Shown: positions 15,009-22,418 of the stretch, piece by piece | Numbering within the stretch: position 1 is the first letter of the stretch | Layout: every line of letters starts with the position of its first letter | Assembly (NCBI GenBank): GCA_026005175.1 | Contig: BPKO01000006.1 | Coordinates: forward strand, 174,906 to 238,905 | Length of the DNA stretch: 64,000 nt | From: Candidatus Tectimicrobiota bacterium | Lineage (GTDB): Bacteria; Tectomicrobia; Entotheonellia; Entotheonellales; Entotheonellaceae | Reading direction: 5' to 3' | Translations under genes and position numbers: made by a program | Notes under the pieces: model-generated | Told to the model about the DNA's origin: nothing | The model's database searches: none | What the model saw: the letters and a program-made list of their open reading frames with translations, nothing else

Positions 15009-17353
15009 ATGAAGCAGGAGAGGGAAGAGGTTAAGCCCTCTGCGAGTGACTGGGTAGCCCAGTTACAGCGGCGCGTGGTGGCCTTGGAAAAGGCGGCAGT
15101 AGCTCCGGAGGGGTCCGGCCTGTTGGAGACGATGGCGGCCCTGACCACGGCCCTCATCACCGAGCCGCGGCTGGCGGTGCTGCTGCAGCGGCTTGTCGAG
15201 CAAGCGGTGGGGCTGATTCCGGCAGCAGACACGGCGATGCTGTTTCTGTGGGACGCCGAGCGCGAGCGGCTGGTGCCGGAAGTTTGGTATGGTACCGACC
15301 TGCCCTTGCCCCGCATCCCCTTGCGGCTGGGCGAAGGGGTCACGGGCACGGTGGCCTTGCGGCGGCAGGGGTTGCTGGTCACTGACTACCTGCACTCGCC
15401 CTATGCGCTGCCGGTGTTTGCTGAGCATTTCGGGCCCCATGCGGTCCTTGCCGAGCCGCTGCTTCACGGGGCGCAGCTGGTGGGGGTGCTTGTGCTCAAC
15501 AACTTCCATCGCCAGGTACCCTTCACGCCGCGTGACCAGCAGCTGCTCGCGCTGCTGGCAACGCAGGCGGCGGCGGCGATTGCCACGGCACGCCTGCGCG
15601 AGGCCCGCCAGCGTCACCTAGAGCGCCTGCGGACCCTCACCCACCTCCTCCAGCACATCACCGCCTCGCTGTAGCTCGAGCAGGTGCTCAAAGAGATTGC
15701 CCAAGCCACCGCCCATCTGATGGCCGTCCCGGTGGTTTCAGTCTGGCTGGCCGACGAGGCGGAGCAAACCTTAACCCTGGGTGCCTTTTCCGATGAGCAC
15801 TTTGGCGCCGACTTCCCGGTGCAGCAGCTCCCCGTCAGCGAGGGAGGTATCGGCTGGGTGGCACGCCACCGGCGGCGACTTGAGGTTGCCGACGTTTTTG
15901 GCGATCCCCGCTTCGTGGCCCTGACCTGGTGGCGGGCGCGTGGCCTGCGCAGCTTCCTGGGTTTGCCCATCCTCTTTGCCGGACGCCTCCTGGGCGTCTT
16001 GTCCCTCAACGGCGACCGGCCGTTTCGCTTTGGTGAAGAAGACTACTGGCTCCTGGACACCCTGGTGGCCCAAGCCAGTATTGCCATCGAGCACGCGCAG
16101 CTCTTTGCCGCCATTGGCAAGCAGACGCAGCAACTGCTTACGGCCAATGCCCAGTTGCGGGCGGAAATCGCCGAGCGCCAGCGCACCGAAGCGGCGTTGC
16201 GCGAAAGCGAGCAGCGCTTCCGCAAGATCTTCGAAGAAGGTCCGCTGGGCATGGCCATCGTCGACCGGGCATACCGCTACACGCACGTCAACGCCACCCT
16301 GTGTCGCCTGCTGGGCTATGGCGAAGCCGAGCTGGTGGGCCGCTCTTTTCTCGACATCACCCATCCCGAAGAAGTCGAGCGGGACCGCCAGCAGGCGGCC
16401 CGGCTGCTTGGCGGTGAGCTGGCCGTCCTGCGGACGGAAAAGCGGTATCTACGCAAAAGCGGCGAGCCCTTGTGGGTCTCCCTGACGGCTTCGGTGATTC
16501 GTGACGAAGCCGACCAGCCCTGCTACGTCCTGACCATGGTCGAAGACATCAGCGAGCGCAAGCGCTGGGAGGCAGAGCAGCAGCGTATTCAAGCGGAGCT
16601 GGAGCGCCGGGTAAAGGAGCGCACCGCGGCACTGGCGCAGGTCAACGCCGAACTGGGCCCGCTCCAATGCCGAGCTGGAGCAGTTTGCTTACGTCGCCTC
16701 CCATGACCTGCAAGAGCCCCTGCGCATGGTGCGCAGCTTTTTGCAGCTTTTGGAGCGGCGCTACGCGGAGCGGCTGGACGTCGACGGCCGCACGTTCATT
16801 GCGTATGCCACGGACGGCGCCGCGCGGATGCAGCAGATGATCCAGGACCTCCTGGAGCTGGCGCGCCTGCAAGTGCAGGAGCCGGTGGTGACGCTGACGG
16901 ACTGCCAGGCGGTGCTAGAAGCCGCGTTGCGCGATCTGCAGCTGCGCGTGGCCGAAAGCGGCGCCGTGGTGCAGTACGGGGCCGCTGCCTACCGTGCGGG
17001 CCGATCCGCGCCAGCTCGAACGTCTGTGGTTCAACTTGCTGAGCAACGCCCTCAAGTTTCGGGGCGACGCCCCGCCCCGCGTGGAAATCCATGCCCAACG
17101 CCAGGAGGCGCAGTGGTGTTTTGCGGTGCGCGACAACGGCATCGGATTTGATCCCCAGTATGCCGAGCGCGTATTTGGCATTTTTCAGCGCTTGCACCCG
17201 CGTGAGCGTTACCCGGGCACCGGCATTGGCTTGGCCTTGTGCAAGCGCATCGTCGAAAAACACGGCGGGCGTATCTGGGTGGAAACGCAGCCTGGCAAGG
17301 GAACCACGTTTTACTTCACGCTACCGGACTCACCCGCAAGGAGCACGCCATGA
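15009..17353 (+). CDS. GAF-GAF-PAS sensor histidine kinase, interrupted by an amber codon and two frameshifts
   Basis: The assembled product is a soluble sensor kinase of about 780 residues. It has GAF1 near 30-195, GAF2 near 228-368 ([15 protein letters not shown]), PAS near 401-517 with a PAC-like end ([11 protein letters not shown]), and HisKA with His near 565 in [13 protein letters not shown], the phytochrome-kinase style. The HATPase near 660-775 carries [17 protein letters not shown] and [10 protein letters not shown]. Codon 222 is TAG at 15672-15674, in frame (ASL[12 protein letters not shown]). One extra G near 16650-16655 and one extra base near 16983-16990 shift the frame. Its stop overlaps the next gene in ATGA form. 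It heads the kai-containing cluster and probably phosphorylates the regulator behind it. Confidence 0.8.
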
Positions 17354-17823
17354 GCAGAGGGGACAAAGCAGCCACGCCGATCGAGGTCCTGCTGGTGGAA
17401 GACAACCCTGGCGACGTCTACCTGACCCAGGAGGCGCTGCGCGACAGCCGTGTGCAGGTGAACCTGCACGTGGTGGGCGATGGCATGGAAGCGATGGCCT
17501 TTCTACGCCGCGAGGCGGCCTACGCCAGTGCTGTGGCACCCGACCTGATCCTCCTCGACCTCAACCTGCCACGCAAAGACGGGCGCCAGGTGCTTGCCGA
17601 AGTGAAGCAAGACCCGCACTTGCGCCGCATTCCTGTGGTGGTGCTGAGCACTTCCAGTGCCGAGCGCGATATCGTCGAGAGCTATGACCTGCACGCCAAC
17701 TGCTACATTGTCAAGCCTGCCGACTTTGACCACTTCGCCGGGGTGGTGCGCACGATTGAGGACTTCTGGTTTGGCATTGTGCAGTTGCCCCGTCACGGAG
17801 CTGCTGCGGATGGCACCGGATAA
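17350..17823 (+). CDS. Rcp1-like single-domain response regulator
   Basis: The 157-residue protein is a receiver of the Rcp1 type that pairs with phytochrome-like kinases. It begins [20 protein letters not shown], has a long alpha2 region ([15 protein letters not shown]), the phospho-acceptor in [17 protein letters not shown], the Ser/Thr switch [13 protein letters not shown] and the Lys in [12 protein letters not shown]. Its ATG overlaps the kinase stop by 4 bases and its 3' end overlaps the next gene by 14 bases, so kinase, regulator and KaiA-like protein are translationally linked. It has no output domain. Confidence 0.92.
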
Positions 17824-18668
17824 AGTGCGCGTGCTGCTTGTTGAAGACAATCCAGGCGACGTGCGCCTGTTGCAGGAAACCCTGGCAGAGGCCAAAACGA
17901 GCCACTACGTGCTGTCCCCGGTGACCGACCTGCGCAGTGCCCTGCGGCGGCTGGCCGAAGAGGTCTTTGATGTCGTCCTTCTTGACTTGATGCTGCCTGA
18001 CAGCGTAGGGCCTCGACACCTTCCTGCGGCTGCGCGAGGCAGCCCCTTCGGTGCCTATCGTCGTCCTTTCCGCTCTGCCCGACGAGCACCTGGCCCTGCA
18101 GGCGGTACAGGCTGGTGCCCAGGACTACTTGGTTAAGGGGCAGACCGAGGCGCCGCTTCTCGAGCGTGCCTTGCGCTACGCCATTGAGCGCCACCGGCTG
18201 GCGCGGGCCTTGGAACAGGCGCGCCAGCGCCAGCAGCAGGAGCAGGAACTGCGCTCGCTGGATCGTCTCTCGCACACGGCGCCGGCGGCGGTGACGGCGC
18301 ATCTCTTTGGAGACGCGCCCTTGCGGCAGACCGCCCCCGAGGTCTTTCAGGCCTGGGTGGCGCGCTACGGCAGCCTTCTCGACATGGCCCTCGAGCAGCG
18401 CGCTTACAAAGTCGACCACCGTCTGTCGGCGCACCTGCGCACGCTGGCCGAGGAACTCGGCTTCATGCACGCCGGGCCGCGCGACGTCATCGACGTGCAT
18501 ACCCAGGCGCTACACCCCAAGCTCCGCGACGTGCTGCCAGAAAAAGCCCAGGCCTACCTGGAAGAAGGGCGAATGCTGGTTCTCGAACTGATGGGGCACC
18601 TGGTGGCCGTTTACCGCGTGTACGCGCTGGGGCGGCGCAGTGGGGGTGAATCCCGTCTCGCCCCCTAG
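17810..18668 (+). CDS. Receiver + KaiA/RsbU-type C-terminal domain protein; candidate KaiA equivalent (one frameshift)
   Basis: Closing a +1 frameshift near 18007-18010 (an extra G in GTAGGGCCTC) gives about 285 residues. Residues 1-120 are a receiver ([33 protein letters not shown]). A coiled segment follows ([15 protein letters not shown]), then a helical domain near 180-280. That domain has the pattern [14 protein letters not shown], then [20 protein letters not shown] and GHLVAVYR. It resembles the four-helix KaiA C-terminal domain (IHMELMD ... DVIAHLCEMYR) and equally the RsbU N-terminal domain (IISIHRKVLKEL ... LPE ... MAY), which share a fold superfamily. It sits immediately before kaiB and kaiC, as kaiA does in cyanobacteria, and has about the length of KaiA. 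KaiA-like stimulation of KaiC is a hypothesis; an RsbU-like switch role is the alternative. Confidence 0.7.
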
Positions 18669-18683
18669 CGGAAGGGGTTGCTC

Positions 18684-18965
18684 ATGTCTAAGTATCTCTT
18701 GAAGCTTTACATCACCGGAAGAACTCCTCGCTCTGAACTCGCTATTCGCAACCTACGTCGTCTGTGTGCCGAAGAGCTGCAAGGGCAGTACGAGCTGGTC
18801 ATCATCGACGTGCTGGAGCGGCCGGAGCTGGCCGAAGCGGCCAAGATCCTGGCCACTCCCACGCTCAGTAAAGAACTGCCGCCGCCGCTGCGGCGCATCA
18901 TCGGGGATCTGTCGGACCGCGAACGCGTGCTGCTGGGACTGGAGCTTTTGCCCTTTGCCGAATAA
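18684..18965 (+). CDS. kaiB: Circadian clock protein KaiB
   Basis: The 93-residue protein is a full-length KaiB, the metamorphic thioredoxin-like protein that binds the KaiC CI ring. Nearly every hallmark is present: [18 protein letters not shown], then [45 protein letters not shown]. The KaiB-specific cis-proline region and the RRIIGDLSD block are intact. ATG 18684 follows GGAAGGGG; a TTG two codons earlier is a less likely start. It lies 15 bases after the KaiA-like gene and 28 bases before kaiC, so the three are probably one transcript. Confidence 0.96.
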
Positions 18966-18993
18966 CCCCGTGCCAGAAGGAGAGCACCGCACC

Positions 18994-20533
18994 ATGGCCA
19001 TCCCTGAGCTGACGCCTGTGGAGAAGCTGGCCACGGGCATTCCTGGCTTTGATCTCATTGCGGCCGGGGGACTGCCCAAGGGCCGCACCACGTTGGTGTC
19101 CGGTACGGCAGGCAGTGCCAAGACGGTCTTTGCCGTGCAGTTTCTGGCCGAAGGCATCCGTCAGGCCCAGGAGCCCGGCGTCTTCGTAACCTTTGAGGAG
19201 CCTCCTGCCGATATTCGGCGCAACATGCTGGGCTTTGGCTGGGACATTGCCCGCTGGGAAGCCGAGGGCAAGTGGGCCTTTGTTGACGCCTCGCCGCAGC
19301 CCGGCAACGAAGACATCGTGGCCGGCAGCTTCGACCTCGGCGCCCTGCTGGGGCCCCGCATCGAGTACGCAGTGCAGCGCCTGGGGGCCAAGCGCGTCTC
19401 CATGGACTCTATCGGTTCGATTTTTTCCCGCTTGCCCGACGCAGCCCGCATTCGCAGCGAGCTGCTGCGCATTGCCGTCGCCCTCAAGGCGCTGGAGGTC
19501 ACGGCGGTGATGACCGCAGAGCGCACCGAAGAATACGGCGACATCGCCCGCTACGGCGTTGAGGAGTTCGTTGCCGATAATGTCATTATCCTGCGCAACG
19601 TGCTCGAAGAAGAAAAGCGCCGCCGCACCATCGAGATCCTGAAGTTCCGCGGCACCGTCCACCAGAAAGGAGAGTTTCCTTTCACCGTGGTGCCGCAGGT
19701 CGGGATCATGGTGATTCCGCTTTCGGCCATCGAGCTCAAGCAGAAGTCCTCTGACGTGCGTATTACCTCGGGCAACGCCGAACTGGATCGCATGTGCGGG
19801 GGAGGCTTCTTCCGCGATTCGATCATTCTCGTCTCGGGCGCCACCGGCACCGGCAAGACGCTGCTCACCACCGAGTTCATCGCCGGCGGCGTGCGGCAGG
19901 GCGAGCGCTGTCTTCTCTTTGCTTTTGAGGAAAGCCGCGATCAGCTCTACCGCAACGCCTCCGGCTGGGGCGTCGACTTCGCCCGCATGGTGGACGACGG
20001 CAAGCTGGTCATCGTCTGCGAGTACCCCGAAGCCGCCAGCCTCGAAGACCACCTCATCAACATGAAAGAGGCCATCCGGCAGGTCAACCCCGACCGCGTC
20101 GCCGTCGACAGCCTTTCGGCGCTGTTTCGCGTGTCGACGCCCAAGGGCTTTCGTGAGTTCGTCATTGGCCTGACCTCGTTCATCAAGGAGCGTGAAATTG
20201 CCGGCCTGTTTACCTCCACGACGCCCACCCTGCTGGGCAGCCCCCTCGGTCACCGAAGCCCACTTTTCTACCATTACCGACTCGATCATTTTGCTGCGCT
20301 ACGTCGAGATGTACGGCGAGATGCGCCGCGGCATCACCGTGCTGAAGATGCGTGGTTCGGCACACGACAAGGACATTCGCGAGTTTACGATCGACAACCG
20401 CGGCATGCACATTGGCCGTCCCTTCCGCAACGTTACCGGGATCCTCTCGGGAACCCTGCACCCGGTCATTGAGCAGGAAATGGAGCGCGTCGACGACCTC
20501 TTTCGCACTCGCTCACGCCCCCCAAACGGCTAG
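18994..20533 (+). CDS. kaiC: Circadian clock ATPase/autokinase KaiC (one frameshift)
   Basis: The gene encodes a double-RecA KaiC of about 512 residues once a +1 frameshift is closed. The shift is an extra C in the C run at 20241-20245, joining TSTTPTLLG to SVTEAH. CI has Walker A GTAGSAKT (37-44) and the Glu pair FEE (68-69). CII has Walker A GATGTGKT (about 282-289), FAFEESRDQL and the IDSLSAL-like strand VAVDSLSALF. The CII phosphorylation sites are all present: Thr420, Ser425 and Thr426, a constant offset of six from T426, S431 and T432 of the Synechococcus protein. The region EEYGDIARYGVEEFVADNV is typical of true KaiC rather than the generic RecA-like relatives. It follows kaiB. The ATG has AGAAGGAGAG upstream. 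Confidence 0.95.
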
Positions 20534-20564: not shown

Positions 20565-22418
20565 ATGACGGCTATTTCGGTTCTCCACATCACCGACAAC
20601 GTTCCTGCGGCACAACGCGTGCGGCAGGTGTTGCGTCAGGCCTCCTGGCCGGGGAACTCCCTGGCCTTCCACCTCCTGGAGGCCACCACCCTAGCCGCCG
20701 GCCTGTGCCGTCTGGGACAAGGCGGCGTGGACGTGGTGCTGCTCGACCTCACCTTGCCTGACAGCCAAGGGCTCGCCACGCTGCACGCCGTGGTGTCGCG
20801 CTTTCCTGCCGTGCCGGTGGTGGTGCTGCTTGACGAAGGCGAAGCCCCCGAGCTGGCGCTCAAAGCCGTCCAGGAGGGCGCCCAGGACTGCCTGCGCCAG
20901 CGCGAGGTGGAGGATCGGCTTCTGGTGCACACGCTGCGCTACGCCCTGGAACGCCATCGCCTGTGGCGGGCGCAGCAGGCCAGTGAGGCGCAGCTGCGCC
21001 GTGTCATTTACAGCAACGTCGATGGCATTCTCGTCATCGACCGGCGCGGCATCATCCGCTTCCTCAACCCCGCGGCGGAAGCGCTCTTTGGCCGCCCGCG
21101 CGCCGAACTGCAAGACCGAGTGTTTGGCTATCCCCTGGTGGTCGACGACACGGCGGAGATCGAGATCCTCACCCCAGGCGGCCACCTGCGGCGAGTGGAG
21201 ATGCGCGTCGTTGACCTCGAGTGGGAGGGCGAGCGGGCATACCTGGCCTCGCTGCGCGATGTCACCGAGCGCCACTGTGCCGAAGAGGCCTTGCGCCGGG
21301 CGCAGAAGCTCGAAGCCCTCGGGCGCCTGGCCGGCGGCGTGGCCCACGACTTCAACAACCTCCTGACCGCCATTTTCGGCTACAGCGACCTGGTGCTGCG
21401 CCACCCCCGCTGCGATCCTGCTTTGCACCACTACGTACAGCAAATCATCAAGGTGGCCGAACGCGGCGCCGGGTTGGTGCGCCAGCTCCTCACTTTCAGC
21501 CGCAACCAGCCCGTCGAGCCGACGCTGCTTGACCTTAATGCCGTGGTCATTGACTTGAGCCGCATCTTGCGGCGGGTGCTGGGCGAGGATATCCTGCTGG
21601 ACACCCGCCTGGCCCCTGATCTGGGCCTTATCTGTGCCGACCGCAACCAGCTCGAACAAGTGCTCATGAACCTGGCGGTGAACGCCCGCGACGCCATGCC
21701 TGGTGACGGGACACTGCGCATCGAAACGGCCAACGTCGAGCTGGACGCCGCGACAGCGCAGCGGCAAGGGGCCGTGACAGGCCCCTACGTGTGCCTCACC
21801 GTCAGCGACACCGGCTGCGGCATGGACGAAGCCACGCAGGCGCGGATTTTTGAGCCCTTCTTCACCACCAAGGCGCCGGGGAAGGGCACAGGATTGGGCC
21901 TCGCCACCGTTTACGGCATCGTCAAGCAAAGCGGCGGCCACATCGAGGTGCGCAGCCAGGTGGGGAGCGGCTCGACGTTTACCATTTACTTACCCCGGGT
22001 GGCACCCGGACCGGCAAGGCCAGAGACGGCTGCCCCGGTGGCCCAGGCCCTGCACGGCACGGAAACCGTTCTCCTGGTGGAAGACAACGAGGCTATCCGG
22101 GCGGTGATGAGCGCTTCTCTGCGCGAGCACGGCTACCGCGTCCTGGTGGCGGGCGATGGAGCGTCGGCCCTGGCGCTGGTCGAGCAACACCAAGGGCCGC
22201 TGGACTTGCTGATCACCGACGTGGTCATGCCGCAGCTGGGCGGCCGCGAGCTGGCAGCACGGCTGCAAAGCTGGCACCCGGGGCTGCGGGTGCTGTACAT
22301 TTCGGGCTACAGCGGCACCAAGGGGCCATCCCCAGAGGCAGGAAGCGCTTTTCTGCCCAAGCCGTTTACCCCCGAAATGCTGGTGCGCAAAGTGCGCGAG
22401 CTCCTCGATGCCCCCTAG
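20565..22418 (+). CDS. Hybrid histidine kinase REC-PAS-HisKA-HATPase-REC
   Basis: The 617-residue soluble kinase begins with a receiver (residues 1-130) whose sequence style ([14 protein letters not shown] ... AVQEGAQD ... [10 protein letters not shown]) closely matches the receiver of the KaiA-like protein. Its conserved Lys is replaced (CLRQRE). A PAS domain (about 145-250) is followed by HisKA with the His in [19 protein letters not shown], the NtrB-like style. HATPase follows ([37 protein letters not shown]) and a C-terminal receiver ([38 protein letters not shown]). It starts 31 bases after kaiC and is probably in the same transcript, so it may read or report KaiC state. That link is inference. 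Confidence 0.9.

Follow-up and report, generated by a model that had tools for sequence, protein, structure and literature searches.

Organization of the kai locus

The window, a stretch of 64,000 nucleotides from Candidatus Tectimicrobiota bacterium, contains a run of forward-strand genes in which kaiB and kaiC are preceded by a candidate kaiA3-type gene and flanked by two-component genes. The kaiA3-type gene lies at 17810–18668 on the plus strand, with an ATG at 17810, a TAG at 18666–18668, and one extra base, a surplus G at 18008–18010 within GTAGGGCC. Once this one-base frameshift is skipped, the window ORFs and their translation give a product of 285 aa. The gene kaiB (18684–18965, plus strand; 93 aa; PF07689, E 1.2e-27; PRK09301, 117 bits) follows after 15 bp, and kaiC (18994–20533, plus strand; circ_KaiC, 633 bits) follows kaiB after 28 bp and encodes 512 aa with one extra base passed over. 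KaiB and a full double-domain KaiC are identified beyond doubt by Pfam and NCBIfam, and the two gaps bear out a preliminary description of this DNA, which had placed both genes within tens of bases of a KaiA-like gene. The surplus base of kaiC, absent from that description, sits in a CCCCC run at 20241–20245. The GC content is 66.5% in kaiA3, 58.9% in kaiB, 62.7% in kaiC, and 66.2% in the whole window.

Upstream of these genes, a broken sensor histidine kinase gene of GAF-GAF-PAS-HATPase architecture occupies 15009–17353 (plus strand; Pfam GAF, PAS, and HATPase_c). It is interrupted by an in-frame TAG at 15672–15674, and its reading frame shifts at least twice, around 16650 and 16980; these breaks point to error-prone assembly or decay. 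A single-domain response regulator of the CheY/Rcp1-like kind comes next (17350–17823, plus strand; PF00072, E 1.4e-17), and its end is overlapped by the start of kaiA3 over 14 bp. Downstream of kaiC, an intact hybrid histidine kinase with the order receiver-PAS-HisKA-HATPase-receiver by Pfam (20565–22418, plus strand) is the probable input or output partner. A kinase occupies the equivalent upstream place in two Thermodesulfobacteriota loci (L002 and L003) and in many Pseudomonadota loci; the response regulators at the same position in L002, L003, and Pseudomonadota are 55–64% identical to that of the window, and a kinase 3' of kaiC is also found in L002 and most Pseudomonadota loci. Phytochrome input was considered and rejected, with a PHY domain found in 0 of 10 upstream kinases; the recognized sensors of these kinases are PAS, GAF, PocR, Cache-like, 4HB, or receiver domains.

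Domain architecture of the KaiA3-type protein

The product consists of a receiver (residues 8–119), a long linker helix (114–156), and a KaiA C-terminal-like domain (about 176–276). The receiver matches PF00072 over residues 8–119 with E 6.5e-21. E12, D13, D59, and K109 are all kept, so that phosphorylation of the receiver is probably feasible, in contrast to KaiA's pseudo-receiver. The C-terminal part is modeled by AlphaFold as four helices (176–199, 205–218, 223–238, and 243–276; mean pLDDT 82.9), and the chain stops about 10 residues past this helical domain, with no C-terminal PP2C-type phosphatase. The ORF, the PF00072 match, and the modeled helices agree with the preliminary description, which had read a gene of about 285 codons with one frameshift, a receiver, and a helical C-terminal domain.

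Searches with the window protein alone (Pfam, NCBIfam, and phmmer) gave the receiver as the only match of any weight, with no KaiA or RsbU. The Pfam KaiA model (PF07688) matched nothing in the host's own genome at E ≤ 10, the window protein included, and the RsbU_N model (PF08673) matched nothing in that genome at E ≤ 0.001 and not the window domain either. When folds were compared using the full model, the matches listed were receiver and kinase entries, KaiA not among them, the receiver having filled the list. The C-terminal domain predicted alone from its single sequence, with no alignment, reached a pLDDT of 48.8.

Family profiles were informative about the origin of the C-terminal domain. 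A profile of five non-cyanobacterial sequences (the window, L002 and L003 of Thermodesulfobacteriota, L004 of Granulosicoccus, and L006 of Magnetococcales) was run against the full set of PDB sequences and gave eight matches at E ≤ 10; every one was KaiA (best E 1.5e-4) and none was RsbU, so the likeness to KaiA exceeds chance. Direct similarity to canonical KaiA is weak: hhalign against 30 canonical KaiA C-domains gave 44% (E 2.4e-4, end to end over 92 columns), and one of 40 column-shuffled controls reached 23%. A broader profile of 30 rows was dropped, its PDB matches mixing KaiA with helical chance ones (SHERP, apolipoprotein A-I). For both reasons we relied on a ranked test on the 6913 ORFs of the collected loci, 84 of which bear the domain. 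The canonical KaiA profile ranked domain ORFs as 19 of its top 20 and 40 of its top 50, while B. subtilis RsbU_N, a single sequence standing for RsbU and differing from PDB 2j6y by one residue, ranked 7 of its top 20 and 9 of its top 50. No RsbU_N relatives for building a profile were found in 60 genomes.

Furthermore, in seven columns (Y, H, R, L, L, Y, and R) the commonest residue of the new domains is also that of KaiA and reaches at least 70% in each group, the window domain having M at the first L. RsbU keeps just the first two, Tyr and His; the C-terminal Arg and Tyr-Arg residues occur in 80–82 of the 82 domain members and in all 30 KaiA sequences and are absent in B. subtilis RsbU. The IDVHTQAL and GHLVAVYR blocks, singled out in the preliminary description, do align with KaiA sequences, for instance EIHVELMD and AHLCEMYR. 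Given the KaiA ranking and the seven shared columns, the domain belongs on sequence grounds, remotely, with KaiA rather than with RsbU, and its matches are not confined to RsbU-type proteins: in the PDB search and in the ranked ORF test it lies closer to KaiA. The KaiA relationship proposed earlier is thus favored by our own KaiA profile and by the PDB, but the Pfam KaiA and RsbU_N models match nothing in the window protein. A sub-threshold Pfam match to bDLD3 (bacterial death-like domain 3) was also seen in 3 of 30 members (best E 3e-4), including L178:5997-6920, and may reflect chance or a common helical fold.

Identity of the KaiA and KaiC proteins

A 2024 study described the KaiA3 type in cyanobacteria and in a small number of other bacteria (Koebler et al.; PMC11372060). 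A profile built without cyanobacteria finds 14 cyanobacterial proteins in 194 genomes at 118–133 bits, and kaiB is immediately 3' of all 14 genes. Counted from the probable start, these proteins are 288–299 aa long; the phospho-acceptor column falls at residue 65 in 12 of the 14, with Asp in 11, and two are exactly 299 aa long with Asp65 and have kaiB but no kaiC nearby. Because size, residue 65, and the cases of kaiB without kaiC fit the account in PMC11372060, the set was taken as KaiA3-type, an identification made from these features. The C-terminal domain of the window protein is closely homologous to these proteins over its whole length and, taken alone, aligns with their 14 domains at 100% in hhalign (E 2.8e-38). 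In the domain tree it groups with KaiA3, Thermodesulfobacteriota, and Chloroflexota sequences, with a modest support of 84 and no resolution within the group; its nearest relatives by sequence are from Chloroflexota (60% identity). By homology, the gene that precedes kaiB encodes a KaiA3-type fusion of a receiver with a KaiA domain.

In the window KaiC, both the catalytic Glu (FAFEES) and the Ser-Thr phosphosites (EAHFSTITDS) are conserved. Its tail, GILSGTLHPVIEQEMERVDDLFRTRSRPPNG, has the form GILSG...EMERVDDLF and matches the KaiA3-partnered KaiCs, not canonical KaiC. The protein has no C-terminal extension of the kind, about 50 residues long, that in Rhodobacter KaiC is associated with phosphorylation independent of KaiA (PMC10076222). 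In the KaiC tree, the window KaiC belongs to a clade of 48 that also holds cyanobacterial KaiC3-type and other KaiA3-partnered KaiCs (support 99), separate from 12 canonical KaiC1, and its nearest relatives by sequence are again from Chloroflexota (75% identity). Elsewhere in the same genome (contig C4, L296:3952-5508), another protein with two KaiC domains (519 aa) is encoded; it is very distant from the window KaiC and has YLFEER and GLSHLADT instead of the FAFEES and HFST motifs. The host is not a cyanobacterium, as the preliminary description had suspected: five genomes represent its phylum here, whereas the 194 cyanobacterial genomes come from a larger group. Collectively, it is very probable that this host has the complete set of three KaiABC timer components.

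Distribution and conservation of the gene order

At a domain match threshold of E ≤ 0.001, the KaiA-type domain was found in 32 of 400 Chloroflexota genomes, 22 of 398 Pseudomonadota genomes (two of the 22 being seed genomes), and 16 of 194 cyanobacterial genomes (two of the 16 being weak and without kaiB nearby). With the window counted in and the two weak cyanobacterial genes left out, kaiB lies just downstream of 66 of the 82 domain genes; the figure rises to 68 under a looser criterion of distance on either side. The order with kaiBC is therefore conserved across phyla, and the earlier view that KaiA is essentially cyanobacterial is out of date; nor does the survey support an exceptional status for this position. 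Dvornyk and Mei (2021) likewise described kaiA from other genomes outside cyanobacteria, and in cyanobacterial KaiA they noted N-terminal domains that vary, REC among them (PMC8113500). The order HK-RR-kaiA3-kaiB-kaiC-HK is found again in L002, in many Pseudomonadota, and, up to the end of the contig, in L003. An upstream response regulator accompanies 18 of 24 Pseudomonadota genes, none of 40 Chloroflexota genes, and none of 14 cyanobacterial genes. Among the five genomes of the host phylum that were covered, that of the window is the sole one with a KaiA-type domain and the sole one with KaiB; since the four others lack both, the Kai cluster is accessory in this phylum. The domain alone implies no clock, because genes without adjoining kaiBC exist (13 of the 40 in Chloroflexota, plus that of G020).

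Several other architectures were seen in the survey. In many Chloroflexota a PAS-PAS module takes the place of the receiver before the KaiA-type domain, giving proteins of about 400–440 aa encoded directly 5' of kaiB and kaiC (L192:6007-7221, L187:5927-7123, and L184:5041-6348). About a dozen Chloroflexota loci are similar, and L186:5969-8326 has extra sequence in front; a large PAS protein is often encoded next, with GGDEF-EAL in L192. We found no published report of this form before kaiBC in the part of the literature covered. Receiver-KaiA genes apart from kaiBC form another group (L178:5997-6920, L180, L181, L183, L185, L189–L191, L193, L200, L204, and L225:5447-6322). Those of Chloroflexota mostly have a histidine kinase downstream and form a clade of their own. 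Several of these genomes hold a further KaiA-type gene adjoining kaiBC. L225 reads kinase, response regulator, receiver-KaiA. In a second Pseudomonadota type, kaiB lies 5' of the receiver-KaiA gene (L006:5177-8619, L240, L244, L245, and L226:11457-14227), and several of these loci have a second, divergent kaiB downstream (41–46% identity). The KaiC of this type forms a separate clade (53–55% identical) with the tail NIILGIPSA.

Proposed function and alternative explanations

In Synechocystis, the only organism for which this is known, KaiA3 binds KaiC3 and increases KaiC3 phosphorylation. KaiB3 counteracts this, and together the three proteins yield a damped cycle of about 24 h in vitro as well as rhythmicity in cells (PMC11372060). 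By analogy with this system and from the sequences described above, we consider it highly probable that the locus encodes a KaiA3-KaiB3-KaiC3-type timer wired to two-component signaling. KaiA3 would stimulate KaiC phosphorylation, as in Synechocystis; KaiB would bind phosphorylated KaiC and then antagonize KaiA3, and KaiC phosphorylation would rise and fall as an hourglass or a damped oscillation. The idea of the preliminary description that the KaiA-like protein may supply the missing KaiC-stimulating function is in this way backed by the Synechocystis KaiA3 experiments (PMC11372060). A neighboring histidine kinase probably phosphorylates Asp59 of the receiver and would thereby gate the stimulation of KaiC, a control suggested by the receiver residues and the gene neighborhood, and the flanking response regulator and kinases may carry input and output.

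The same genes could instead form a two-component-gated, non-rhythmic stress or metabolic switch, in which the state of the receiver, not time, sets KaiC phosphorylation. This is a real though lesser possibility, consistent with the intact receiver, with the upstream kinase and response regulator in overlapping genes and the downstream kinase, an arrangement recurring in other phyla, and with the stress or hourglass roles reported for KaiB and KaiC homologs outside cyanobacteria (PMC11372060, PMC10076222); the cycles of about 24 h shown by Synechocystis KaiA3B3C3 in vitro and in cells argue against it (PMC11372060). Since the switch differs from the timer in rhythm alone, our confidence in the one overlaps with that in the other. 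It is unlikely that the cluster is decaying and the system no longer made, as real frameshifts in kaiA3 and kaiC and a real stop and shifts in the kinase would imply. Five disruptions do fall within about 5 kb (kaiA3, kaiC, and the upstream kinase), yet kaiB and the hybrid kinase are intact, and the kaiA3 and kaiC frameshifts are likely assembly errors because they are single extra bases in runs (GGG and CCCCC), the sequence on both sides of each is strongly conserved with relatives, and the genome is rated 77% complete yet in 14 contigs, as expected of indel-prone reads. Most improbable is an RsbU_N-type regulator of an RsbT-like or other partner, with kaiBC adjacency reflecting a stress pathway and not KaiC stimulation: RsbU_N and KaiA-C share a common fold (PMC11372060), and Pfam weakly matches RsbU_N in 6 of 30 members (best E 0.021) against 2 of 30 for KaiA (best E 0.16), but the ranked ORF test, the Arg and Tyr-Arg residues, the absence of a phosphatase domain, and kaiB next in most cases all argue for KaiA.

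With the timer as the preferred reading, the locus extends the KaiABC-type three-protein timer to a small phylum outside cyanobacteria. What is new is the host; the kind of system is already known, and KaiA3-B-C sets are fairly common in Chloroflexota and Pseudomonadota by our survey, of which the window locus is one more example. It makes testable whether non-cyanobacterial hosts run a KaiA-driven oscillator and whether that oscillator is gated by a KaiA receiver open to phosphorylation. More tentatively, the KaiA-type domain may be an interchangeable KaiC-activating module, switched by receiver phosphorylation in the HK-RR-kaiA3-kaiB-kaiC-HK unit and by PAS sensing in Chloroflexota; if so, environmental signals would feed directly into the clock at the step that stimulates KaiC.

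Comparison with known Kai systems

The closest counterpart is the KaiA3 system of Synechocystis sp. PCC 6803. KaiA3 (Sll0485) likewise combines a receiver bearing the phospho-acceptor Asp with a KaiA-like C-terminal domain (299 aa versus 285 aa in the window), its gene lies directly 5' of kaiB, and its KaiC is of the same clade. In the window, by contrast, kaiC comes directly next, and the kinase and single-domain response regulator 5' of kaiA3 form an arrangement that none of the 14 cyanobacterial genes shares. KaiA of Synechococcus elongatus shares the C-terminal domain homology, the seven conserved columns, and the order kaiA-kaiB-kaiC, whereas its N-terminus is a pseudo-receiver without the phospho-acceptor Asp where the window has a true receiver, its sequence similarity is remote, and its KaiC tail is of another type. 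The RsbU N-terminal domain (PF08673) resembles the window domain in its four-helix fold, according to the literature, and in the Tyr and His columns; it lacks the C-terminal Arg and Tyr-Arg, the window protein lacks the phosphatase domain, and the neighbors differ. KaiBC-only systems of the Rhodobacter sphaeroides type also have kaiB and kaiC in a non-cyanobacterium, whereas in the window a KaiA-type gene precedes them and KaiC does not carry the long coiled-coil extension at its C-terminus.
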